From: Verrucomicrobiota bacterium
GTDB lineage: Bacteria; Verrucomicrobiota; Verrucomicrobiia; Limisphaerales; UBA9464
Direction: 5' to 3'
DNA: 64,000 nt
Assembly: GCA_017309115.1 (NCBI GenBank)
Contig: JAFLEF010000010.1
Location: 90,617-154,616 of the forward strand
The notes beneath the pieces are model-generated. The model worked only from the letters and a program-made list of their open reading frames with translations. It made no database searches and had not been told where the DNA came from. The stretch's first letter is position 1; the number at the start of each line of letters is the position of its first letter. Position numbers and translations under genes: made by a program. Shown here in pieces: positions 25,601 through 37,316 of the stretch.

Positions 25601-26307
25601 ATGGTCGTCAAACCCTGGAAACGATGGGCTGGCTCGACCACTACGCGCCCGTCTGGACCGACCTTGGTCTCGATCCGGATCGACCGGGAATTGTCATGAA
25701 AGGTGTCAGTCCGGTAGTTGGTCACATACAGATCCAGATCCCCATCGCCCTCGACATCGGCCAGGGCCATCGACGTTGCGCCCAGGCTGCGGGCCACCCC
25801 GGAGTTGGTGCTTTCGCTGAATCGAGCCCGGCCGTCGTTGAAGAAGATTCGAGTTCCCTGGCCCAGACTATTGACCACTAGGTCAAGGTCACGATCCCCA
25901 TCCAAGTCCACCAAGGCCGCCCCGGTGGAGTACTGATCCGGACACGCCGTCCCGGAAGCCGCGGTCATTTCTTCGAACCGCCAATCCCCCAGGTTCCGAT
26001 AGAGCGCGTTGTCTCCCTCCGTTCGGCAGAAGTACAAGTCCACCTTCCCGTCTCCATCCACATCCCCCGCCGCGACGCCTGACCCGATTTCCAGGAGTCG
26101 GTTGGCGGCCATGGAAGCCTGCGACAGTCGATTGCTAAAACCAATGCCTGTCGTCTCCGCCGGCAGCACCGTGAACCCCACCCGCTGACTTGCGGGAACC
26201 AACAACGGCTGCCCTCGAACCTCGGACTGAGCGAGTAATCGACTGCCGAACACGATCCCAAAACAGAGTAACCCAAGCGAGAGCCCGATTAGCGGCCGAG
26301 GGGACAT
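22651..26307 (-). CDS. FG-GAP/VCBS repeat protein with two ASPIC/UnbV domains, paralogue of the converging gene
   Basis: A signal peptide (LIGLSLGLLCFGIVFGSRLLAQ) leads a 1218-residue protein with the same domain order as its plus-strand neighbour: propeller repeats (VAAGDVDGDGKVDLYFCR, ALVDLDGDRDLDLVV), a central ASPIC/UnbV domain (GVGARIQIKGGPV ... VWRSGKTSQLKG), further repeats (AMADVDADGDLDLFVGG) and a C-terminal ASPIC-like domain (AIGATVRLRYP ... VEVRWPGGGVQ). Shared landmarks such as DWGL, TDW(S/T)W and DFGRQPLL/DWSRQPLL show common ancestry by duplication. Its role is presumably binding at the cell surface. The two genes end tail to tail. Confidence 0.9.
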   Translation of the reverse strand: MSPRPLIGLSLGLLCFGIVFGSRLLAQSEVRGQPLLVPASQRVGFTVLPAETTGIGFSNRLSQASMAANRLLEIGSGVAAGDVDGDGKVDLYFCRTEGDNALYRNLGDWRFEEMTAASGTACPDQYSTGAALVDLDGDRDLDLVVNSLGQGTRIFFNDGRARFSESTNSGVARSLGATSMALADVEGDGDLDLYVTNYRTDTFHDNSRSIRIETKVGPDGRVVVEPAHRFQGLTTMSGGLEVIEKGEPDLFYVNRGAGQFVPAPWNVGVFLDEQGEFLGGPPTDWGLAVVFRDLNGDRLPDLYVCNDFVHWPDRIWFNQGGKRFRAAPRTSLRNVSLSAMAVDVADINRDGHDDIFVAEMLSPRRETRAWQRPDTLAGTIVWPVADPEFRPEVTRNTLHLSRGDGTFAEIGRLAGVSATDWTWSAAFLDVDLDGWEDLLLTTGAYHDVQDLDATLKIARGGGWKTREQRLKDLSMIPRRLTPSVALRNRRDLTFEDRSADWGFGQVGIAHGMAFADLDGDGDLDVVINCLNEPARILRNDTSAPRVAVRLRGEGKNSRGVGARIQIKGGPVIQSQEILGAGRYLSSDDPMRTFATGNAAAVDIEVVWRSGKTSQLKGVLPNHLYEVSEATAELLPAKAVSDRPPLFADVSANLGHQTRDSEFDDFGRQPLLPRRLSTRGPSVGWWDADGDGDEDLFVGGVGTHSPVGYRNERDSRWSPWNLPVLAEATDQVALLGWRDGRGARLMLGESGWERDRLGPVPVATLDLGGTNGWQRPKALPALAVGVLAMADVDADGDLDLFVGGGALPGRYPEASPSQLWMNEGSHWRPGMLWPELGLVQGAVFADFDGDADADLVVAVEWGTPRFLRNDGSAWVDVSREMGVGELTGWWTSIGAGDFDGDGRMDFVVGNWGLNGRTDEPPGQQLPVSLFYGDLAQDGRMATLLASVDPFQNQVTPWREFRRLKEMIPDLAERIPDHHTYGRSSLATILGPSASRARELRASTLASVVLLNRGTNFEVRPLLMEAQFTPVFGLAVADFNGDGNEDVFLAQNFFGTDAETSRLDAGFGLCLLGDGRGAFRALRPQESGIAIAGEQRGCAVGDFNGDRRPDLVVTQNRGTTHLLRNDTGLPGRSVLLVGPPENPQAIGATVRLRYPDRLGPAREIRVGNGFGSQDSTTLILGAPTEPLGVEVRWPGGGVQEVRWPQGAVAVRIDRSGVAAQ

Positions 26308-26421
26308 GGATGCGCCACGCTACTGAGTAACCCCGGCGCGGTGCGATCCAAATCTTTACCTGAGCGACTAATAGTGCCTCCCGGGCCCAACCCTCCACTC
26401 CGCTCGGTTGATTATCCCGAC

Positions 26422-26539
26422 CTAGCCCGGAAACTTCACAGTCTTTCTGCTGCGGCTTGCTGCAAGCCCGTCTGGCGGCGTTGGCCAGACGGGCTTTCGC
26501 TGCACCTCGCGACGAAAGCTTGTGAAATATCCGGGCTAG
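26422..26539. repeat. CTAG-ended inverted-repeat element with inner hairpin (MITE/REP-like)
   Basis: The 118-bp element begins CTAGCCCGGAAACTTCACAG and ends, read on the other strand, CTAGCCCGGATATTTCACA, an imperfect terminal inverted repeat of about 20 bases. The centre holds a perfect 13-bp stem (26464-26476 with 26484-26496; AAGCCCGTCTGGC / GCCAGACGGGCTT) around a 7-base loop. The right-hand CTAG contains the TAG stop codon of the adjacent minus-strand gene. A partial copy lies at 36250-36315. Confidence 0.8.
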
Positions 26540-27324
26540 CACTTCGCCGACTTGCGCTTTCGGCCGATCGTTCCCCGTTTTTGAACGTTGCGAATGTAAG
26601 CCGAAGCCAGCGGAACTTCACAGCTGTTCGGACCCAGATCCGCTTCCACCGGCCCAAGTTCGTCTGCAATCTCTAGGGCCAGCGGCGTCAACTCGGCCAC
26701 ATAACAGCCAGCGGCAATAAGAAATCCGTTCATCTGATACCGGACCCGGTCGGGCGCCTTACAAAGGTCGCGCAGAACGCGCTTCATCAATCTTTTCAAT
26801 TCGGGCAGGTCAAGATCGGCATCGGGTTTTACTGACACGAGGGAACTCCACGTGGCCCAACCCGCTTCCTGTTCGTCGGCCGATGCTGAATCAATCCACC
26901 GGCGAGCCAGCGTCAATCCATGGGGACTGGACGCCGCCACCCACGGCAGGGTGCAACCCAACTGACTGCGCCCCTGGGCCGTGTTCACCCAATGTTGCAA
27001 ATCCCGTTCCGTCATGCGCACGTCGTCCGCCATCAGGCCGGCCAGATACCGAGCGTCGTAGTGGCCGGTGTCGTACAACTCGAGCGCCAGTTCGTAGTTG
27101 GGTCCCACCCGCTTCAGGATTTTCTTCAACTCCGAAATGGGCACGCCGTCGATGGGTTCACAGGCACCATGATTCTTCATCAGAACCCGCTTGTAGCTCT
27201 CGCGTCCCAGCGACTTGAGCTCCTGTAGAATCTGCGCTGCGGTCGCGGAGGTCGGTGACGAGGGAGAGCGCTTCATGAGTTTCCCAATTCGTGCGCCAAG
27301 TTTGGCCACAGTCGCAAGCGGCAT
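26536..27324 (-). CDS. DNA alkylation repair protein, AlkD-like HEAT-repeat family
   Basis: The helical, lysine-rich N-terminal part ILQELKSLGRESYKRVLMKN, then GVPISELKKILKRVGP and YDTGHYDARYLAGLMADD, match the AlkC/AlkD HEAT-like DNA glycosylase family, which excises N3/N7-alkylated bases without flipping them. The length of 262 residues is close to the family norm. A basic C-terminus (RKRKSAK) would aid DNA contact. The start may instead be the ATG at 27276, which begins closer to the family N-terminus. Its TAG stop codon is formed by the CTAG terminus of the repeat element, so the last residues may have been changed by the insertion. Confidence 0.8.
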   Translation of the reverse strand: MPLATVAKLGARIGKLMKRSPSSPTSATAAQILQELKSLGRESYKRVLMKNHGACEPIDGVPISELKKILKRVGPNYELALELYDTGHYDARYLAGLMADDVRMTERDLQHWVNTAQGRSQLGCTLPWVAASSPHGLTLARRWIDSASADEQEAGWATWSSLVSVKPDADLDLPELKRLMKRVLRDLCKAPDRVRYQMNGFLIAAGCYVAELTPLALEIADELGPVEADLGPNSCEVPLASAYIRNVQKRGTIGRKRKSAKC

Positions 27325-27526
27325 CTAAGCCCGGACCCGTAGCCGCTGAGGGAACGAAGCGCTGACTTCTCTGAAATACTTCACGCGTTGGTTTGCCGTG
27401 ACGCGAGCGAAAGGAATCGAGACGGCGCCTCCTCCCGTCGGCGGCTACTCGGTTAATTCGCGGTTCCCACAGCATTGGGCCGAATCTCGCTCGACACCCC
27501 AGGCACCCCAGCAGCATCGTCACCTC

Positions 27527-28621
27527 ATGCCCCAGACCAAGGTTTCCCTCGCTGCCTTGTTGCGTGCGTTGATCGATAACGGGGGCTCAGACCTGCACTT
27601 GCAATCGGACGAGGTTCCCGTGGGCCGAATCCAAGGCGTGCTGGGACGCTTTGAATTGCCCCCGCTTTCGGAAGCCGACGTGCTCGCCTTGGCCGAACAG
27701 ATCCTCGGCTCAGCCGAAAAAGCCCGGGCCTTCGAGCAAACCAAAGACGTTGATTCTGCGTTCGCTCTGGAAGGGCTCGGACGGTTTCGTGCCAGCCTCT
27801 TTTTCCAACGAGGCAAACCCGGGCTGGTGCTCCGGGTCATCGGCACTCGAATCCGTTCGCTCGAAGAACTCGATCTTCCGCCCATCCTGAAAACCCTGGC
27901 CACCGCCAGTGACGGATTGGTTTTGGTCACCGGAGCCACCGGCAGCGGCAAGTCGACCACGTTGGCGGCGATGATTGATCATCTGAATGCCACCGAGGCC
28001 CGGCACATCATGACCCTGGAGGATCCCATCGAGTTTGTTCACGAGAACAAGCTGTGCCTGATCAACCAGCGGGAGATCGGACTGGATACCGAATCCTTCG
28101 CCTCCGGACTCAAGCACGTACTTCGGCAGGATCCGGATGTCATTTTGATTGGCGAAATGCGCGACATGGAATCGGCCTCCGTCGCGCTCACCGCCGCAGA
28201 AACCGGCCATCTCGTGTTCGGCACCCTCCACACCCAGGACGCCGCGGAGTCGGTCGAACGTATGCTCAATCTCTTTCCCACGGACCGCACCCATCAGATC
28301 CGCCTGCAACTGTCGCTCGGATTGCGGGGTATCGTCTGCCAGCGCTTGCTTGCGCGCGCCGCCGGCGGACGGATCGCCGCCCTGGAAGTGCTCACCAACT
28401 CACCGCGTATCCGCAAACTGATCCTCGACGGCGAGACTACGAAAATCTCCGCCGCGATTCAGTCCAGTCGGACCGAAGGCATGCAGACCTTCAATCAGGC
28501 TCTGACGGACCTAGTCAAGGCGAGCAAGGTGACCGAAGACGAAGCCGTGGCCAATTCCTCCAAGCCCGACGAACTGCGCATGAACCTCAAAGGCGTGTAC
28601 TCCGGTTCCACCGGACTTTAA
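27527..28621 (+). CDS. PilT/PilU-type type IV pilus retraction ATPase (first of two)
   Basis: This is a hexameric secretion-superfamily ATPase acting at the inner-membrane base of type IV pili. The N-terminal PAS-like part has GGSDLHLQSDEVPVGRIQG. The RecA part has Walker A GATGSGKST (136-144), the Asp box LEDPIEFVHENK, Walker B VILIGEMRDMES and the His box ETGHLVFGTLHTQDAAE. The PilB N-terminal domain is missing, so it is of the PilT/PilU class. The ATG at 27527 fits the family start. The second PilT gene begins 16 bases downstream. It is more divergent than its neighbour and may be the PilU-like partner. Confidence 0.9.
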   Translation: MPQTKVSLAALLRALIDNGGSDLHLQSDEVPVGRIQGVLGRFELPPLSEADVLALAEQILGSAEKARAFEQTKDVDSAFALEGLGRFRASLFFQRGKPGLVLRVIGTRIRSLEELDLPPILKTLATASDGLVLVTGATGSGKSTTLAAMIDHLNATEARHIMTLEDPIEFVHENKLCLINQREIGLDTESFASGLKHVLRQDPDVILIGEMRDMESASVALTAAETGHLVFGTLHTQDAAESVERMLNLFPTDRTHQIRLQLSLGLRGIVCQRLLARAAGGRIAALEVLTNSPRIRKLILDGETTKISAAIQSSRTEGMQTFNQALTDLVKASKVTEDEAVANSSKPDELRMNLKGVYSGSTGL

Positions 28622-28637
28622 CTGCCCCCTTCCGCCC

Positions 28638-29699
28638 ATGGATCTCGCCGAACTCCTCCAATACGCCGTCCAATATCAGGCGTCCGACCTCCATCTGACG
28701 GTCGGCCGTCCCCCAATGGTCCGCCTGGCCGGCAAACTGGTTGCAAGCGGGTACGAACAGGTGCTCGCCGCCGATGACACCAAGAACCTCATCTACAGTG
28801 TGCTCACGGACGATCAGAAGGCGAAGTTCGAAGAGGAGCACGAACTGGACTTCTCCTTGGGCATCCCGGGGATCTCCCGCTTCCGCGTCAACGTGTTCAT
28901 GCAGCGTGGCAGTGTGGCCGGGGTGTTTCGCACCATCGGCGACGACATTCCCACCGTGCAGCAACTCGGTGTGAGCCAGGCCGTCCAACAACTCGCCCTG
29001 CTGCCGCGCGGATTAGTGCTCGTCACCGGCCCCACCGGGAGCGGCAAGTCCACCACGCTGGCCTCCTTGATCCATCTCATCAATTCCGAGAAGGAAGCGC
29101 ACATCGTCACCATCGAAGATCCCATCGAGTTCGTGCATCCCCACGGAAAGTGCACGATCAACCAACGCGAATTGGGCACGGACACCTTCTCATTTCCCCG
29201 GGCTCTTAAATCCGTCCTGCGGGAAGATCCCAATGTGGTTCTGGTCGGCGAAATGCGCGACCTCGAGACCATTGCCGCCGCGCTGACCTTGGCGGAAACC
29301 GGACACTTGGTGCTGTCCACTCTGCACACCCAGGACGCCTCACAGACTGTGGACCGGATCATCGATGTCTTCCCGCCCTACCAGCAGGAACAAATCCGCG
29401 TCATGCTTGCCGCCACACTCAAGGGGGTCGTCTCGCAAATCCTGCTACCCCTGTCCGACGGCAGCGGACGCATTGCCGCCCGGGAAACCCTGATCGTCAC
29501 CCCAGCCATCGCCGCCATCATCCGCGAAGGCAAGACTCACCAGATTTACTCTGCGATCCAGACCGGTGGCCGCGACGGAATGGTCACCATGGAACAGTCG
29601 CTCGCGGGTTTGGTCGCCGGTGGTTTGGTTTCAGCTGAAGACGCCCTGTCCAAGGCCAATTATCCTGAGGAATTCCGCAACCTCGCCCGACTCACCTGA
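28638..29699 (+). CDS. pilT: type IV pilus twitching motility ATPase PilT
   Basis: The protein closely matches PilT: ASDLHLTVGRPPMVRLAGKL at the N-terminus, RFRVNVFMQRGSVAGVFR, Walker A GPTGSGKST (131-139), TIEDPIEFVHPHGK, Walker B VVLVGEMRDLETI and the His box ETGHLVLSTLHTQDASQ. The C-terminal GRIAARETLIVTPAIAAIIREGK is also typical. Its length of 353 residues is normal. It powers pilus retraction for twitching. The stop codon overlaps the start of the cNMP/GAF gene by one base, so the three genes form one operon. Confidence 0.95.
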   Translation: MDLAELLQYAVQYQASDLHLTVGRPPMVRLAGKLVASGYEQVLAADDTKNLIYSVLTDDQKAKFEEEHELDFSLGIPGISRFRVNVFMQRGSVAGVFRTIGDDIPTVQQLGVSQAVQQLALLPRGLVLVTGPTGSGKSTTLASLIHLINSEKEAHIVTIEDPIEFVHPHGKCTINQRELGTDTFSFPRALKSVLREDPNVVLVGEMRDLETIAAALTLAETGHLVLSTLHTQDASQTVDRIIDVFPPYQQEQIRVMLAATLKGVVSQILLPLSDGSGRIAARETLIVTPAIAAIIREGKTHQIYSAIQTGGRDGMVTMEQSLAGLVAGGLVSAEDALSKANYPEEFRNLARLT

Positions 29700-30652
29700 T
29701 GGACGCTTCCACGCTTCAACGCCTCGAAGTTTTTCGCGAGCTGCCGGCCCCGATTCGGACCGAACTGGCCCAAGTGCTCGACGAGCGCACCTACGCTGAC
29801 GGCGAGACCATTTTCGCTGAAGGCACCCCGGGAGACACCCTGTTCTGCGTCGTGGATGGGGCAGTGCGCATCGAGAAACGCGTGGCCGCGGACGAAGCCG
29901 CCACCAAGACGTTGTCCATTCTGACTCCTGGCGAACTGTTCGGCGAAATGTCCGTCTTCGACAGCAAACCGCGCTCGGCCACAGCCCGCGCCGACGGCCC
30001 CACAATCCTGTGGGCGCTACCCAAGCCGGCTTTCGAAACACTGTTGGCCCACAATCCCACCTCGGCGCTGCAACTGCTGTTCAGCCTGATGCGGGCCATG
30101 AACGAGCGGATTCGCCGGCTTAACTCCAGCGTGGTCGTGTACGACGAAATCGGCCGCTCCATTGGATCCGCTGATCATCTCCAGACCCTGCTCGACCGGG
30201 CCCTGCACCAACTGGGAGAAGCCATCGGCGCCGATCGCGGACTGGCGTTCATTCAGGCGGAGTTTCACCGTGAACTCGAAGTCCGTGCCCGCTGGGGCTC
30301 CGTACCACCGGCCACGCCAGTGGAACTTCCCGGAACCGAATACCTGGTGGGCCAGGTCGCCAACGGGACATCACCCTGGCTGGTGCTGGACCGGGCCCAG
30401 GACCTCCGCTGCCAAGCCCGTCCCCCGAGGTCGTGGGAAGGCACCTCCCTGATCCTTGCTCCCATCCTGATCTCAGGGTCGCTCCTCGGCGTGATGGCGT
30501 TCAGTCATACCTTGCCCCGGCGCTTCGATCGAAATCATCTCAATTTGGTGGAAGGAATCGGCCGACAAATCGCCCAAGCCTTGCTCAACCTGCGGCATCG
30601 GGAGGAACAGCATTCCCGCGCCCGCATGGGACGTCAGTTTGTGAAGTTCTGA
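29699..30652 (+). CDS. cyclic-nucleotide-binding plus GAF domain protein
   Basis: Residues 1-120 form a cNMP-binding (CAP-type) domain, with ETIFAEGTPGDTLFCVVDGA and the phosphate-binding-cassette region GELFGEMSVFDSKPRSATA. A GAF domain follows (about 155-300), beginning with DHLQTLLDRALHQLGEAIGA. No DNA-binding helix-turn-helix is seen, so it is a cytoplasmic sensor and not a CRP-type repressor. The ATG overlaps the TGA of pilT, implying that it modulates the pilus ATPases in response to a cyclic nucleotide and a second ligand. That regulatory role is an inference from the operon. Confidence 0.85.
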   Translation: MDASTLQRLEVFRELPAPIRTELAQVLDERTYADGETIFAEGTPGDTLFCVVDGAVRIEKRVAADEAATKTLSILTPGELFGEMSVFDSKPRSATARADGPTILWALPKPAFETLLAHNPTSALQLLFSLMRAMNERIRRLNSSVVVYDEIGRSIGSADHLQTLLDRALHQLGEAIGADRGLAFIQAEFHRELEVRARWGSVPPATPVELPGTEYLVGQVANGTSPWLVLDRAQDLRCQARPPRSWEGTSLILAPILISGSLLGVMAFSHTLPRRFDRNHLNLVEGIGRQIAQALLNLRHREEQHSRARMGRQFVKF

Positions 30653-30716
30653 TACCCGCTCGTTCCAGCGGTCTCCCCTTCGCATGGCGGCGGATTCTCG
30701 CTATCGTTCCCAAATC

Positions 30717-32282
30717 ATGCGCCGCGCTCCGTTTCCCTCTCCTCGCCGTTTGCCCATCGGCGTCCTGTTCGCGTGGCTCGGACTAGCGTTTTTGCCGGGC
30801 CAAGCCGCCGACCGACCGCAGTTCGGTCAGGCTTGGAACCGGAATCCAGCGTCCTCCGAGATCGGGCTCCCGGACTCCTTCGATCCTAAGTCTGGCAAGA
30901 ACGTCCGCTGGTCGGTTCCGTTGGGGACGGAGACTCATTCGACTCCGGTGATCAGCCAGGGTCGGGTCTACATCGGAACTAACAACGGCCAACCCCGAGA
31001 CGAACGTCGGACCGGCGACCGAGGCGTCCTGCTGTGCCTCGATGAACGGGACGGACATCTGCTCTGGCAACTGGTCGTTCCCAAGCGGGAACAGGATCCC
31101 TACTTCGACTGGCCCAAGTCCGGTATTTCGTCACCCGCGAGCGTCGAAGGCGACCGGGTTTACCTGGTGGACAATCGCGGGGTGGTTCTCTGCCTCGACG
31201 CCCAGGGTCTGGCCAACGGAAATCAAGGCCCCTTCCAGGACGAAGCCAGCTACTTCACTCCCCGCGGCACCAACGGCCTGCCGGTCCAGACTCCCCTGCC
31301 CCTCGGACCGCTGGATGCCGATATCCTCTGGCAGTTCGACCTAACGCGGGAAGCGGGCATCTGGTCCCACGACGCCGCTCACAGTTCGATTCTGATTCAT
31401 GGCGATCATCTGTATCTCAACACCGGCACCGGAGTCGACAACACGCACAAAAAGATCCGGACTCCGGAAGCTCCGAGCCTGGTGGTCCTCGACAAATCCA
31501 CTGGCCGCTGGCTTGCCCAGGATGGACTCGGTATCGCCCCGCAGATTTTTCATTGCACGTGGTCCTCGCCATCGCTCGCCTCGATGGGCGGACGTGACCG
31601 GATATTCTTCGCCGGTGGCGATGGGGTCATTTATTCCTTCGAACCACTTCCCAGGAAGTTCCAACCCGGCGCAAAACCCGTTGTGCTGAAGTTAATCTCC
31701 CGTTTCGACTTCGATCCCCAGGCGCCCAAGGAGGACGTGCACCGCTACAACAGCAACAAGAGTGTCAGTCCGAGCAACATTTACGGATTCCCCGTGATCG
31801 AGGATGGCCGGCTGTTTGTGGCCGGGGGCGGCGACTGGTTCTGGGGCAAGAACGAAGCCTGGCTCAAGTGCGTCAATCCCGACGGCGAAGGCGATCTCAC
31901 CGCAACTCACCTGCTTTGGGAATATCCGCTCGGGCGACACACGATGTCGTCACCCTCCATTCAGGACGGCCTGGTGGTGGTGGCGGATTCCATGCGCAAA
32001 GTGCACTGCGTCGACGCGGCCACTGGTCAGCCCGTTTGGACCGAGGAATTAGACGGCGAGTTGTGGGCGTCAGCACTGCTGGCCGACGGAAAAATTTACA
32101 TCGGAACCCGGCGCGGCGATTTCCGGATCTTTGCCTTGAATCGAACCAAGCGGGAACTGAGCCGAATTCAGCTGGACTCCGGCCTGAGCGCCACTCCGGT
32201 CGCTGCGAACGGATCGGTTTACGTGGCGACGCAAACCCGACTCCACGCGCTCACCCAACCCGTGCCCACCGCCCAACCGTGA
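30717..32282 (+). CDS. secreted PQQ-like beta-propeller repeat protein
   Basis: A signal peptide (IGVLFAWLGLAFLPGQAA) precedes repeated W-type blades characteristic of PQQ-binding-like or BamB-type propellers, for example LLCLDERDGHLLWQLVVP, VYLVDNRGVVLCLDAQ and VHCVDAATGQPVWTEELDG. PQQ-dehydrogenase catalytic residues are not recognised, so a ligand-binding or scaffolding role is likelier than oxidation. Starts at 30717 or 30684 are both possible. Its stop overlaps the sulfatase start (GTGA), indicating coupled translation and a linked role in handling exported substrates. Confidence 0.85.
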   Translation: MRRAPFPSPRRLPIGVLFAWLGLAFLPGQAADRPQFGQAWNRNPASSEIGLPDSFDPKSGKNVRWSVPLGTETHSTPVISQGRVYIGTNNGQPRDERRTGDRGVLLCLDERDGHLLWQLVVPKREQDPYFDWPKSGISSPASVEGDRVYLVDNRGVVLCLDAQGLANGNQGPFQDEASYFTPRGTNGLPVQTPLPLGPLDADILWQFDLTREAGIWSHDAAHSSILIHGDHLYLNTGTGVDNTHKKIRTPEAPSLVVLDKSTGRWLAQDGLGIAPQIFHCTWSSPSLASMGGRDRIFFAGGDGVIYSFEPLPRKFQPGAKPVVLKLISRFDFDPQAPKEDVHRYNSNKSVSPSNIYGFPVIEDGRLFVAGGGDWFWGKNEAWLKCVNPDGEGDLTATHLLWEYPLGRHTMSSPSIQDGLVVVADSMRKVHCVDAATGQPVWTEELDGELWASALLADGKIYIGTRRGDFRIFALNRTKRELSRIQLDSGLSATPVAANGSVYVATQTRLHALTQPVPTAQP

Positions 32283-33712
32283 CCCGATCCCTCCGCTTCC
32301 GGCTGGCGGCCGTTTTGACCGGGGTGTTCCTGCTGCCCCTGATTGCATCGGCCGGCCCTCGGCCCAATCTCATTCTGATTCTCGCCGACGACCTCGGCTA
32401 TGGGGAACTCGGCTGTTATGGGCAGAAGACGATTCGGACACCGAACCTGGATCGCATGGCTCGGGAAGGCCTGCGGTTCACCCAATTCTACGCCGGGTCC
32501 ACGGTGTGTGCCCCCTCCCGCAGCGTCCTGATGACGGGCCTGCACACCGGACATACGCGAGTTCGCGGCAATGCCGGCGCCGCCCGTCCCGAAGCACAGG
32601 CCCTCCGACCGGAAGACAATACCCTCGCCCGAATGCTCCAGCGGTCCGACTACTTCACTTCGTTGGTCGGCAAGTGGGGGTTGGGCAATGTGGGCGCGGC
32701 CGAAACCGGTCTGCCTCGACGCCAGGGTTTCGACGCCTTCTACGGATTTCTGAGTCAACACCACGCTCACAACCACTACCCCGACTACCTGTGGCGGAAT
32801 GAGGCCCAGGAATCCCTGCCCAACGAAATCGTTCCGGTTGGTCCGGATGGCGCAGGCTACGCCACTCGGTCAGTGGTCTTTGCAGATGACCTTTTCGCGG
32901 ACGAAGTGCTCACCCAAGTCACGGCAAGGCGCGACCAACCGTTCTTTCTGCTGTGGTCGATGGTGGTTCCCCACGCCAACAACGAACGCCGCGCCCGACG
33001 ACACGACGGCGCGGAGGTTCCCGACTACGGACCCTATGCCGATCAGCCCTGGTCGGATCCCAACCGGGGTCATGCCGCCATGATCACGCGTCTGGACGGC
33101 TACGTGGGCCGGCTGCTGGACGAACTGCGCCGGCGGAAGCTCGAGCGAAAGACCCTGGTTCTCTTCACCTCCGACAACGGACCCCATCGCGAGAGCAACC
33201 ACGATCCCGACTTGCTCTTCCAACCCTCCGGCGCGGTTCGCGGCTACAAACGCGATCTTACCGACGGAGGCATTCGAGTTCCCCTCCTCGCGTGGTGGCC
33301 GGGAACGATTGCGGCCGGACGCACCACCGATCACATCGGCTATTTCGGCGATTTCTTCGCCACCTTTGCCGAACTGGCCGGAGCCCCAGTTCCCCCCGGA
33401 CTCGACTCCCTCAGTCTGGTGCCAACCCTACGAGGCAAATCCTCCCGGCAGCCGAACCACGACTATTTGTACTGGGAATTCCACGAATCCGGCTTCAGCC
33501 AGGCCGTGCTGATGAACGGTCGTTGGAAGGCGATTCGACTGCGACGTCCGGACGCCCCCATCCAACTCTATGACCTTCAATCCGACCCGCGCGAACTCAC
33601 GGAAGTCAGCGCGCAATTCCCCGCCCTGGTCGCCGCGGCTCGCCAACTACTGGAAACGGCCCGACGGGATTCACCCGATTGGCCCATTACGCCTGCGCGT
33701 TCCCAACCCTAG
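32279..33712 (+). CDS. exported sulfatase (arylsulfatase A family)
   Basis: After a signal peptide (LAAVLTGVFLLPLIASA) the alkaline-phosphatase-fold domain opens with NLILILADDLGYGELGCYG, whose D37 and D38 bind calcium. C77 in VCAPSRSVLMTG is the C-x-P-S-R site converted to formylglycine, so an active type I sulfatase is expected. Further motifs are VGKWGLGN, PFFLLWSMVVPH and LFTSDNGPH. It would remove sulfate esters from polysaccharides or small molecules in the periplasm or outside. The GTG start at 32279 overlaps the stop of the propeller gene. No sulfatase-maturing enzyme is in the window. Confidence 0.93.
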   Translation: MTRSLRFRLAAVLTGVFLLPLIASAGPRPNLILILADDLGYGELGCYGQKTIRTPNLDRMAREGLRFTQFYAGSTVCAPSRSVLMTGLHTGHTRVRGNAGAARPEAQALRPEDNTLARMLQRSDYFTSLVGKWGLGNVGAAETGLPRRQGFDAFYGFLSQHHAHNHYPDYLWRNEAQESLPNEIVPVGPDGAGYATRSVVFADDLFADEVLTQVTARRDQPFFLLWSMVVPHANNERRARRHDGAEVPDYGPYADQPWSDPNRGHAAMITRLDGYVGRLLDELRRRKLERKTLVLFTSDNGPHRESNHDPDLLFQPSGAVRGYKRDLTDGGIRVPLLAWWPGTIAAGRTTDHIGYFGDFFATFAELAGAPVPPGLDSLSLVPTLRGKSSRQPNHDYLYWEFHESGFSQAVLMNGRWKAIRLRRPDAPIQLYDLQSDPRELTEVSAQFPALVAAARQLLETARRDSPDWPITPARSQP

Positions 33713-33717
33713 CCGGC

Positions 33718-34014
33718 TCAGGGACTGGGTTTGGTTGAATCCAAACCCGGCTCGGGCGAACGGAAAAACTCCTCAATCGCCTGTAACGCCTCAAACTCGT
33801 CCGCACCCGAAGCCTCAATTTCCAGGGACGTTCCCAGGCCGGCACTCAAGAGAACGAGGCTTAAGATACTGCGTGGGTCGGCCATCTTGCTGCCCAACTG
33901 AACGGCCAGCCGGCTGGTAAAGCGTTGCGAGACCTGGACCAACTCTGCGGCCGTCCGCAAATGCAATCCGGTGGACCAAGGGACTGTCACATTGACCTTT
34001 TTCATGGCACTCAA
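33718..34014 (-). CDS. HPr-family phosphocarrier protein
   Basis: The 98-residue protein has the HPr fold pattern: beta strand KKVNVTVPW, active-site loop with His in GLHLRTAAELVQ (H18), then DPRSILSLVLLSAGLGTSLEI, which contains the serine at the HPr Ser-46 position. The usual GLHARPA is changed to GLHLRTA, so the residues beside the histidine differ from PTS HPr. No EI, EII or HPr kinase gene is nearby, so a regulatory (NPr-like) role is likelier than sugar transport. An ATG three codons later is an alternative start. It converges on the sulfatase with a 5-base gap. Confidence 0.85.
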   Translation of the reverse strand: MSAMKKVNVTVPWSTGLHLRTAAELVQVSQRFTSRLAVQLGSKMADPRSILSLVLLSAGLGTSLEIEASGADEFEALQAIEEFFRSPEPGLDSTKPSP

Positions 34015-34146
34015 CTTGACCAGTTCGACCCGGTGCCAAGCGTGACGTTCAGAATCCCCCGAAGCGATCTCGAAAAAAACTTTTCGATCCCCGGGTCCCT
34101 TCCAAACCGGTGGCCAGTGACGGGGAACATCTCTAGTGTCACGACA

Positions 34147-36249
34147 ATGTCACGAACGCGCCACGCCCTCCTGGGACTTTTCGTTCTGTGGACTGCATTC
34201 CGCGCCCTTGCCGATGACATCGCCCTCGTGGGGGTGGGAGAGACGTGGCGCTATTGGTACGCGATTGCCGAACCCCCGGCCCATTGGTCGGCTCCCCAAT
34301 ACTCCGACGCGGAATGGTTCCAAGGCGACTCCGGTTTTGGCCGCAGTACTTGGGGCGAGAACAACCTCCTCACCGGCCTGGAACGCGGTTCCGGCAGTGT
34401 TTACTTCCGCAAGGAGTTCACCGTTGCTGATCCCACGGCGGTCGGCTCCCTGACCCTGCGCGTCGACTGGCAGGGAGGATTCGTGGCCTATCTCAATGGT
34501 CGGGAAGTGGTCCGGCGCAACGTGGCTGGACCTCCGGGTTCGCGGGTCCCGTTCGATACCGAGGCCGGCCCCCGCTATGCCGGCGTGGCCGAGGACATCC
34601 TGCTCACCGGACCCGAGGCGACCCTCCTGAAGGGACGAAATGTGCTGGCGATTCAGGTTCACCCGATTCAGGGAAGTCCGGTCGAGGTGGTGCTGGTGCC
34701 CGAGCTGCTCGCCAACTTCACCCGGGGTCCGTATCTGCAATCGGTTCTTTCCGATCAAGCCCGGGTCCTCTGGCGAACGCCACTGCCGCAAACCGGAGTC
34801 GTCGAATGGGGAACCCAGCCCGACCTCTCCGATGCACGAAGAATGCCGGCATCCGGGGTGCTCAGCGCACAGGAGGTTCGCCTGAGCGGTCTAGCGCCGG
34901 GCACCCGCCATTACTACCGCGTCCAGGCTGGGAACCAGGTGTCGCCGGTATTTTCCTTTCGAACCCTGCCTGCTCAGGGCGATCTGGATTTTGTGGTGTT
35001 GGGCGATTCGGGTGCCGGGACCTCGGCCCAATTCGACGTCGCCCGCGGCCTGACCCGTCGGGCTCCCGACCTGGCCATCCACCTTGGCGATATCGTCTAT
35101 CCCCACTTCACCTTCGGGCAGACCGATACCCGCTGCCTGAGCGTCTACCGCCAACTGTTTCGGACGACCCCGTTTTATTTCACCTGGGGCAATCACGACC
35201 TCTACGCCGGGGTCGAACCCTTCAACGCCGCCTTTCGCCAACCCACCAACAACACCCCGCTGACCGATCATCTCGCTGAAGGAACGCGACCGGAGTTTTA
35301 CTATTCGTTCGACGCCGGTGACGCGCACTTCGCGGTCCTGTTTTGGCCTTACTCGAGCCAGTACTACATGCGCGAAGGCTGTCCTCAGTTGCGCTGGCTG
35401 GAAGCCGATCTCGCCGCCAGCACCAAGCCTTGGAAGTTCCTCTGCCTGCACCATCCGGTAAACACCTCCGGTGGTCATCGGAACGACGACTACAACTTCA
35501 ACCGGATTCCGGACCGTGCCGAAGTCGCCGCCCGCCTGCTTCCCGTGGCGGCACGCTATGGGGTGCAACTCATCTTTTCCGGACATGACCACAACTTCGA
35601 ACGGTTCCATCCGATTCAGCAAACTCACACCGTAGTCACCGGCGGCGGAGGCATCATCCTCTACGGCCTCGTTCAATTGGATCCCAATAGCGCGGCCTTC
35701 CAGATCCGCTGGCACCATTCCGAGGTTCAAATTCGTCAGGATCAGCTGCGCTTGGTGGCTGTGGACCGTGCTGGCGAAGCCTTTGATGTTCTCGAGTTCC
35801 GACGCACGCCCCCCACCTCGGACGATCCGGACGGTGACGGCTTGGGACCGGCAGCCGAAGCCGCGGCCGGCACCCGACCCGACAGTCCCGACACCGACGG
35901 GGATGGCCGGCCGGATGGTTGGGAGTACCTGCGCTGGGCTTCCCCGACCAATTCCGACCTGGCTCTGAATTCGTCGCATTTGCTCGAACTGCTGAGTGTT
36001 CCCCTGTCCCGACCGACACTCCAACTGAACAGTCGCCTGGCAGAGGACGGTCACTTGGAACTGCGTTGGCTTGGCCAGGTAGGCCACTGGGCCATCCTGG
36101 AGTCAGCGGCGTCTCCGGATGCAGCCTGGACGCAGCTTCCAGGAATCCAGGCCGGTGGGCCCTTGCGACAGGATCCGCAACAGCTGCGTGTACCGCCCAC
36201 CGACGCCCCCCGATTCTTCCGTCTCCGCCTAGTGCCTCACCCCAATTGA
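34147..36249 (+). CDS. secreted metallophosphoesterase, purple-acid-phosphatase-like
   Basis: A signal peptide (LLGLFVLWTAFRALA) is followed by a beta-sandwich region (to about residue 200), then a fibronectin-like N-domain of purple acid phosphatases (RGPYLQSVLSDQARVLWRTP). The calcineurin-like domain has the full metal site: VVLGDSGAG, IHLGDIVYP, TWGNHDLYAG, CLHHPV and FSGHDHNFER. A calcium-type loop (DDPDGDGLGP, DTDGDGRPDGWEYL) and a short C-terminal module ending in FFRLRL follow. It would release phosphate from organic esters outside the cytoplasm. The ATG at 34147 gives a clean signal peptide. Its stop codon lies at the edge of the partial repeat. Confidence 0.9.
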   Translation: MSRTRHALLGLFVLWTAFRALADDIALVGVGETWRYWYAIAEPPAHWSAPQYSDAEWFQGDSGFGRSTWGENNLLTGLERGSGSVYFRKEFTVADPTAVGSLTLRVDWQGGFVAYLNGREVVRRNVAGPPGSRVPFDTEAGPRYAGVAEDILLTGPEATLLKGRNVLAIQVHPIQGSPVEVVLVPELLANFTRGPYLQSVLSDQARVLWRTPLPQTGVVEWGTQPDLSDARRMPASGVLSAQEVRLSGLAPGTRHYYRVQAGNQVSPVFSFRTLPAQGDLDFVVLGDSGAGTSAQFDVARGLTRRAPDLAIHLGDIVYPHFTFGQTDTRCLSVYRQLFRTTPFYFTWGNHDLYAGVEPFNAAFRQPTNNTPLTDHLAEGTRPEFYYSFDAGDAHFAVLFWPYSSQYYMREGCPQLRWLEADLAASTKPWKFLCLHHPVNTSGGHRNDDYNFNRIPDRAEVAARLLPVAARYGVQLIFSGHDHNFERFHPIQQTHTVVTGGGGIILYGLVQLDPNSAAFQIRWHHSEVQIRQDQLRLVAVDRAGEAFDVLEFRRTPPTSDDPDGDGLGPAAEAAAGTRPDSPDTDGDGRPDGWEYLRWASPTNSDLALNSSHLLELLSVPLSRPTLQLNSRLAEDGHLELRWLGQVGHWAILESAASPDAAWTQLPGIQAGGPLRQDPQQLRVPPTDAPRFFRLRLVPHPN

Positions 36250-36315
36250 GGGCCAACGCCGCCAGACGGGCTTGCAGTCAGCCGCCGCCGAAGGAGTGGG
36301 AGATATCCCGGCTAG
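36250..36315. repeat. partial copy of the CTAG-ended repeat element
   Basis: Read on the minus strand, this begins CTAGCCGGGATATCTCCCAC and runs to the same GCAAGCCCGTCTGGCGGCG core as the element at 26422-26539. It then stops where the second arm of the inner hairpin should begin. The terminal CTAG again contains the TAG stop of the adjacent minus-strand gene (36312-36314). Confidence 0.8.
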
Positions 36316-37316
36316 ACCACCCGATCCAACAAAGGTTCCCCGCGGACGAACCGCTGAAAGTTGCCGAGGAAATGGCCAAGGAGAGTCCCTTGTTCGTCGT
36401 GATGACCTCCAGCCACGTGCGGGGTGATGAAGCAATTGGGCTCCTGCCACAGCGGATGTGACTCCGGCAACGGCTCCGGATCGGTCACATCGAGCCATGC
36501 CGCGCCCACCTGACCCGATTTCAGTGCCGACGCCAGGGCCTCCTGATCAACGGTTGTACCCCGACCGATGTTGTAAAACGTGGCCCTGGGCTTCATCGCG
36601 GCGAATACCGCCCCGTTGCAGAACTGCCGAGTTTCTGCGCTATCCGGCAAAATGTTAACAACATGGTCTGCTAGCCCAAGGGCGGAACGCAGTTGGAGGG
36701 AATCCACGGTCGGAATCCCCTCGTCCCCGCGCGGCTGACGCCGGTATGCGCGGACCTCCATTTCGTACGGACGAAGCAATTCCACCAGACGTCGCCCGAT
36801 CGTTCCAAACCCCAGAATCAGGAGACGCTGTCCGCGCAAGGGCACGCAGGAACCGCGGAGTTCGTGCCAGGCCTCGGAGCCGTTGGCAGTGCGGAGGGCT
36901 AGGGATCGCGGCAAGTTTCGAGACTGCCCCAGCAAGAAGGATAACGCGTGGTCGGCGCAAGCGTCGGCATACACCCGCGCACTGTTGGTCAATTGAATGC
37001 CCCGTTCCTTCAGCCAATTCCGAAACTGCGGCGTGTCGTAGCGCGTGATCCCCGAGGAACTGATCTGAATCCACCGAAGGTTCGGCGCCCCCCGAATGGC
37101 GTCCAAGGCGGGCTGACCAAACGCCACTTCCACCTCGGCAAAACGCGGGTCGGGCTCTGCCTGAGCTAGTACGGAGGCCACTGGCTTGGCGGGAAACACG
37201 AGTTCATGACCGACCGTCCCAGCCCGCAACCGAGCCAGCGACTCCGGCGTCAACGCCAGATCCACAAATACGCGAAATGATTCGGACGGGTGCATCGTCT
37301 GGCCGGACCGTCGCAT
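36312..37316 (-). CDS. D-2-hydroxyacid dehydrogenase
   Basis: This NAD(P)-dependent oxidoreductase interconverts 2-keto and D-2-hydroxy acids. The Rossmann nucleotide-binding motif is LLILGFGTIGRRL (G169-G174 region). The catalytic set of the family is complete: R252 in NIGRGTTVD, E281 in DPEPLPESH and H300 in ITPHVAGG. No specific substrate can be read. A second start at 37295 is possible. It is divergent from the carbon-nitrogen hydrolase gene, with their promoters sharing about 100 bases. Its stop codon lies in the repeat terminus. Confidence 0.92.
   Translation of the reverse strand: MRRSGQTMHPSESFRVFVDLALTPESLARLRAGTVGHELVFPAKPVASVLAQAEPDPRFAEVEVAFGQPALDAIRGAPNLRWIQISSSGITRYDTPQFRNWLKERGIQLTNSARVYADACADHALSFLLGQSRNLPRSLALRTANGSEAWHELRGSCVPLRGQRLLILGFGTIGRRLVELLRPYEMEVRAYRRQPRGDEGIPTVDSLQLRSALGLADHVVNILPDSAETRQFCNGAVFAAMKPRATFYNIGRGTTVDQEALASALKSGQVGAAWLDVTDPEPLPESHPLWQEPNCFITPHVAGGHHDEQGTLLGHFLGNFQRFVRGEPLLDRVV

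Follow-up and report, generated by a model that had tools for sequence, protein, structure and literature searches.

Two genes in the window (the whole stretch of 64,000 nucleotides that was analysed, G000:C2:90617-154616, where G000 is the source genome, a 7.53-Mb draft in 111 contigs and 95.3% complete) end on copies of the same repeat, and they raise the question of whether a mobile element has been directed to stop codons, has brought stop codons with it, or has come to rest on them for some more ordinary reason. The original prediction was that an AlkD-like gene and a D-2-hydroxyacid dehydrogenase gene each take their stop from the TAG inside the terminal CTAG of the repeat, and both stops were confirmed (Table 1). 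It had further held that the repeat is oriented in the same way relative to each gene, which is wrong: when placed against the genome-wide family, copy 1 (+ strand) presents its right end to the AlkD-like gene, and copy 2, a left half lying on the - strand, presents its left end to the dehydrogenase gene, a difference that is masked by the near-palindromic shape of the element. The two copies share an exact 19-mer, set against a chance expectation of 0.05 matches (at up to three mismatches) in the window. On its other side, copy 2 has a convergent gene whose TGA stop is separated from the truncated end of the repeat by a single base; the start of this gene is uncertain, and our codon-usage caller prefers 34147. 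Two tandem PilT-like ATPase genes, named from residues only, occupy 27398-29699 of the window (27398-28621 and 28638-29699).

Table 1. Repeat copies, flanking CTAG words and adjoining genes, in coordinates of the window.
Feature	Position	Strand	Remarks
Copy 1, two-ended element	26422..26539	+	CTAG on both sides; core of about 110 bp rather than 176 bp, internal deletion
Left CTAG of copy 1, putative target-site duplication	26422..26425		
Right CTAG of copy 1, putative target-site duplication	26536..26539		Contains the TAG stop of the AlkD-like gene; empty site in L114
AlkD-like gene (DNA alkylation repair, PF08713)	26536..27324	-	Stop 26536-26538; Pfam match; C-terminus conserved
Convergent gene	33925..36249	+	Looks like a metallophosphoesterase, judged from residues alone
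Copy 2, left half-element	36251..36315	-	Truncated inside the central hairpin
Remaining CTAG of copy 2, putative target site	36312..36315		Contains the TAG stop of the dehydrogenase gene
D-2-hydroxyacid dehydrogenase gene (PF02826/PF00389)	36312..37316	-	Stop 36312-36314; Pfam match; C-terminus conserved

The repeat is a non-autonomous transposon (MITE). A complete copy is about 180 bp long, with a 176-bp core, CCCGGATATTTCACA...TGTGAAATATCCGGG, bounded by two CTAG words; it is short, carries no transposase gene, has terminal inverted repeats (both ends being present in 24 of the 42 copies in G000), is flanked by target-site duplications, and occurs in dispersed copies, with 42 elements in G000 and 16 and 10 elements read in G048 and G050, two genomes of the same genus. 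These elements were counted from termini with at most two mismatches, and weaker copies (for example those on C34 and C107) lie outside the 42. The other 18 elements of G000 were classed as one-ended, and include three of full length (L052, L056 and L060) whose second end is weaker. More widely, the exact 17-base terminus occurs in 26 of 321 genomes and 21 of 118 genera of the order, G000 included, and the reversed terminus pattern had no match in the scan of these 321 genomes. A 26-base element end was also found on six contigs of ‘Verrucomicrobiales bacterium new MAG-8’ and ‘Verrucomicrobia bacterium UWPOB_VERRUCO1’, which are probably G048 and G050. In three genomes (L220, L223, L225) the exact 17-base terminus stands 5′ of a gene, in almost identical positions, and these termini may be conserved sequence instead of element.

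The family of transposase that probably moved this MITE is indicated by its ends. In G004, an insertion sequence of 1761 bp (TAG to CTA), flanked by CTAG, shares its 15-bp ends (CCCGGATATTTCACA) with the repeat, and its transposase of 486 aa scores 339.8 bits against NF033539 (the NCBIfam IS1380 model, cut-off 180) and 416 bits against PF13701. A tblastn search with this transposase found relatives adjoining the same terminus in L094 (92% identity) and L224 (56%), as well as a match of 80 residues at 50% in L245 and a weak one of 23 residues (E 8e-4) in L248, such that IS1380 elements with ends identical to those of the repeat are complete in L093, partial in L094, L224 and L245, and weakly represented in L248. 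No IS1380 element with these ends was found in the 111-contig, 95.3% complete draft of G000, the only IS1380 match of which (L152:1357-2877) has other ends, CCGGAACGATGC, and a 5-bp CTAAG duplication on both sides. Because this one match has different ends, we only infer that an IS1380-family transposase moves the MITE in trans; the partner may have been lost, or may be missing from the draft. Termini lying about 1.2 kb apart on C1, and two more on C44, resembled a complete insertion sequence, and were set aside as no transposase was recognised by eye among the open reading frames between them; searches for the IS630 and IS1380 families likewise gave no match between either pair of termini.

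The pairing of the flanks makes a 4-bp target-site duplication the best reading of the terminal CTAG itself. Among 42 two-ended elements from the window's genus and nearby genomes, 28 have CTAG in both flanks (excluding a 209-bp pairing at L049, a chance match), and in 11 of the remaining 14 one flank carries a single mismatch. Elements from other genera of the order include six with CTAG and five with TTAG in both flanks (L222, L230, L232, L251 and L258, some read on the other strand), the rest being mixed or weak pairings; this co-variation of the flanks demonstrates a duplication of 4 bp in those genera, with the TAG supplied by the target. Elements from the window's genus and neighbouring genomes show a less tidy pattern: TTAG is confined to one flank, and among 84 ends nine have a substituted outer C (C to T in eight) whereas every inner G is intact (p = 0.004); for these genomes a TA duplication within a CTAG or TTAG word would fit the flanks as well or better. 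The two models alike preserve a TAG stop at a CTAG target. A C stands directly outside the CTAG at 39 of 78 element ends from G000, G048 and G050, compared with 62 of 260 other non-coding CTAG words in G000, and the preferred target is therefore C-CTAG-G.

Our initial working reading was of an IS630/Tc1-mariner MITE with a TA duplication inside CTAG, an assignment to which we now give almost no credence. The variable outer C and invariant inner G just described would suit it, as would the CTAG context, which for IS630 was reportedly described by Tenzen and Ohtsubo in 1991; the IS630-family element of G000 (L069:1344-2510) is likewise inserted in CTAG. The ends of this complete element differ from those of the repeat, however, and IS630 was rejected on that ground as the mobilising family, the matching ends being those of IS1380 elements, and the TTAG/TTAG pairs of other genera show that the duplication there is of 4 bp. 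The second DDE_3 match in G000 (L070) is a fragment.

If the TAG belongs to a duplicated target, then the stops of the two window genes might be expected to predate the element, and the comparison of C-termini with element-free orthologues that had been proposed with the original prediction bears this out. For the AlkD-like gene, eight other genomes were matched and six aligned (L120 and L121 fell below the cut-off), and five of the six relatives have their stop exactly where the query does (residue 262); the remaining one, L119, is more distant (26% identity) and reads on. In L114 the site is empty, aagtgcTAG, and without element. For the dehydrogenase, 30 genomes were matched and 29 fetched, and all 29 relatives read a stop, be it TGA, TAA or TAG, within four residues of the query's end, with no terminus of fewer than five mismatches in up to 400 bases after the stop in the 29 read. 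The gene adjacent to the element at L035 behaves similarly, with 19 relatives ending at 213-230 of 215. Judged from these relatives, the two window stops are native and were not made by the element.

These comparisons also bear on the suggestion that the element carries its own stop and so truncates or seals the genes that it enters. A gene running into an element end would, in one of three frames, be closed at once by the TAG, and there is one locus, L052, at which an RmuC-family gene (L052:2417-4000) continues 15-33 residues beyond the stop of 28 relatives (29 homologues in all, one of which, L308, is a fragment) and ends at the element's TAG; the stop of this gene is not ancestral, and a lost stop has possibly been replaced there by the element's target copy. 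Against this, the TAG is part of the duplicated target, and the C-termini of the AlkD-like, dehydrogenase and L035 proteins coincide, or nearly so, with those of their relatives. The suggestion thus finds no support at either window gene, where element-free relatives stop at the same residue or no more than four residues away, and as a general account of the repeat we consider it very improbable.

How often do copies sit on stops? Genes were called with our own codon-usage caller, which is not published and which was trained on G000 and applied unchanged to the other genomes, and on these calls the terminal TAG is the stop of a gene for 11 of 42 elements in G000, 9 of 16 in G048, 2 of 10 in G050 and 2 of 3 in G015, and for none of the single elements of G016, G041 and G004. 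The ‘two of two’ that had seemed striking in the window does not hold as a general rate and is a small-sample effect; at the G000 rate it has a probability of 0.064. By class, the stop-borne elements of G000 comprise 7 of the 18 one-ended and 4 of the 24 two-ended copies, and in G048 they include 8 of the 10 two-ended copies. Divergent genes flank another 11 of the 42 copies in G000, which touch no stop. In other genera, stops coincide with 7 of 42 exact-terminus sites (from 45 of 47 termini read, G310:C468 and G313:C502, at contig ends, being left out), or with 7 of 39 if L220, L223 and L225 are omitted, and two of these seven, L215 and L218, have low coding scores (17 and 15).

Seven of the nine stop genes of G000 outside the window match a Pfam family; the L035 gene, which has no Pfam match, has homologues in 47 of 51 genomes of the family (its own included), and the L047 gene (102 aa) has neither a Pfam match nor other support. 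Two of the least-changed copies in G000, those at L035 (no changes) and L040 (two changes), are on stops. At L040 (L040:2876-4000), the gene whose stop is the TAG of the element, a full copy with almost no changes, encodes a Y1 (IS200-like, Y1_Tnp) transposase of 375 aa. At L099 (G048:C210:5635-5816), two convergent genes each end in the TAG of their own CTAG copy of one element, and before the insertion these genes could have used one palindromic CTAG as both stops.

Whether such counts exceed what the supply of CTAG would give depends on the background chosen. An earlier, smaller background (12 stop, 77 intergenic and 136 intragenic CTAG words) gave p = 0.08-0.24 for stop versus intergenic sites, with 40 to 50 elements assumed, and p < 0.001 versus all CTAG. 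In the larger background, which includes the loci around copies and so is not drawn from random loci, 18 of 182 CTAG words outside genes and elements are on stops in G000, and 2 of 19 in G048; relative to these, the elements are in excess in both genomes (Fisher, OR 3.2, p = 0.009 in G000; OR 10.9, p = 0.009 in G048). CTAG is far rarer in G048, a fragmented assembly, than in G000, there being only 31 non-element words, 11 of them in genes, in the approximately 377 kb with element loci. Pooled over both genomes, the Mantel-Haenszel OR is 4.3 (p = 0.0002), and a genome-wide excess, the absence of which was to count against targeted insertion in the original prediction, is thus present for the two genomes taken together, whereas the two-ended copies of G000 on their own show no significant excess (4/24 versus 18/182, p = 0.30). 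The targeting of stop codons that had been proposed is therefore only partly borne out: stops are over-represented relative to non-coding CTAG, but the target is CTAG, preferably C-CTAG-G, and TAG stops make up a part of such sites.

The excess in G000 is carried mainly by one-ended copies (7/18, p = 0.003 against background), and this remains so if L052, L056 and L060 are moved to the two-ended class (one-ended 6/15, p = 0.004; two-ended 5/27, p = 0.19), although the difference in stop share between the classes is not significant (p = 0.16). The higher share among one-ended copies hints, without proving it, that ends used as stops are kept longer; this longer survival is argued against by the two-ended copies of G048, 8 of 10 of which are on stops, and by the little-changed copies at L035 and L040, which are on stops as well. 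When copies are compared with CTAG words 1-60 nt downstream of a stop, p is 0.06 stratified and 0.009 unstratified. Weighting the G000 background for C-CTAG-G leaves the excess in place (p = 0.004; 0.25 for two-ended copies alone); the corresponding value for G048 has only two stop sites behind it and was left unused.

Some of these figures would suit a true preference, over and above the CTAG word, for stops or the 3′ ends of genes, due for example to transcription-linked DNA structure or exposed 3′ regions. The pooled odds ratio and the persistence of the G000 excess under weighting speak for it, as do the position of the L099 element on the ends of two convergent genes and the counts from G048, where survival alone does not easily account for 8 of 10 two-ended copies being on stops. 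The two-ended copies of G000, however, lack a significant excess under either assignment or with weighting, the stratified comparison with sites just past a stop and the first, smaller background fall short of significance, and the 7 of 42 sites of other genera stand without a matched background; on balance we think such a preference unlikely. A broader version, in which an IS1380-type lineage places or retains stop insertions beyond what CTAG supply and selection would give, either by 3′-end targeting or by ends that are taken over as stops and outlive the element, is doubtful but somewhat easier to entertain. The excess at gene ends is modest, and the case is mostly an ordinary one.

It is also conceivable that the repeat is a REP-like hairpin, retained behind genes where it protects or ends their mRNA. 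The predicted RNA fold, a long hairpin, is very strong (z -8.65 for the complete L040 copy and -10.28 for copy 1), and GTAG-class REPs often supply TAG stops, according to those parts of PMC3733652 that deal with their termini. Yet there is no terminator-like site around copy 1, the one copy scanned, nor any Rfam match over 26200-36500, and the 11 G000 copies between divergent genes involve no stop at all; a role of this kind therefore strikes us as improbable.

The account that we favour, and hold to be very probably correct, is that of an IS1380-mobilised MITE with a CTAG target, combined with selection against insertions in genes and perhaps a longer survival of ends that serve as stops. 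An IS1380-family transposase, acting in trans, would mobilise the MITE and insert it at a 4-bp CTAG (sometimes TTAG), duplicating this word on either side of the element. Since TAG is a stop codon, a gene that ends in C-TAG presents the same target as an intergenic CTAG, and insertion there would copy the stop to both sides, such that the gene would retain its stop and its protein in either orientation of the element. Insertion at a CTAG within a gene would usually be harmful and be purged by selection, and surviving copies would therefore be intergenic or exactly on stops; this harm is something that we infer. An end that serves as a stop may then be kept by selection as the rest of the element decays, a last step that the class counts of G000 only faintly suggest.

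If this is right, a simple rule would follow, namely that any gene ending in C-TAG is a place where a CTAG-targeting transposon can land without harm, as stop and protein are both kept. Should the excess over CTAG supply prove true in fresh insertions, it would represent stop-codon targeting by a DDE transposase; should there be no such excess, the copies on stops would illustrate how fossil transposon ends can be fixed as stop codons.

No report of an IS1380-derived MITE on stop codons was found in the open-licence literature searched; one pneumococcal genome paper contains both IS1380 and CTAG, and in the portion of it that does so the CTAG is part of a primer (PMC3055811). Among the closest known systems is the IS1380 family itself, elements of which in related genomes have the same 15-bp ends, and from which the window repeat differs in lacking a transposase, in its length of about 180 bp or less, and in its CTAG target. 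The IS1380 family (NF033539 / PF13701) has served as an outgroup to piggyBac, and the TTAA of piggyBac, as given in the relevant part of the same source (PMC10813416), resembles the CTAG of the repeat in being a short duplicated target with a central TA. Stop provision of another sort is seen in ISPsp10, of the IS427 group of IS5, where the duplicated target site likewise provides a stop codon; there, as far as the description in part of PMC4133298 goes, the target completes the transposase's own gene, whereas here it is the stop of a host gene that is kept. Finally, the provision of stops by repeat ends is not new in kind, as GTAG-class REPs set a precedent: they too are palindromic, lie near genes and have termini that often give flanking ORFs their TAG stop. 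These REPs are, in the sections of PMC3733652 that define them, palindromes of 20-40 bp tagged with GTAG, and the element described here departs from them in both length and terminal CTAG, being about 180 bp long, flanked by CTAG and bounded by inverted repeats that it shares with IS1380.
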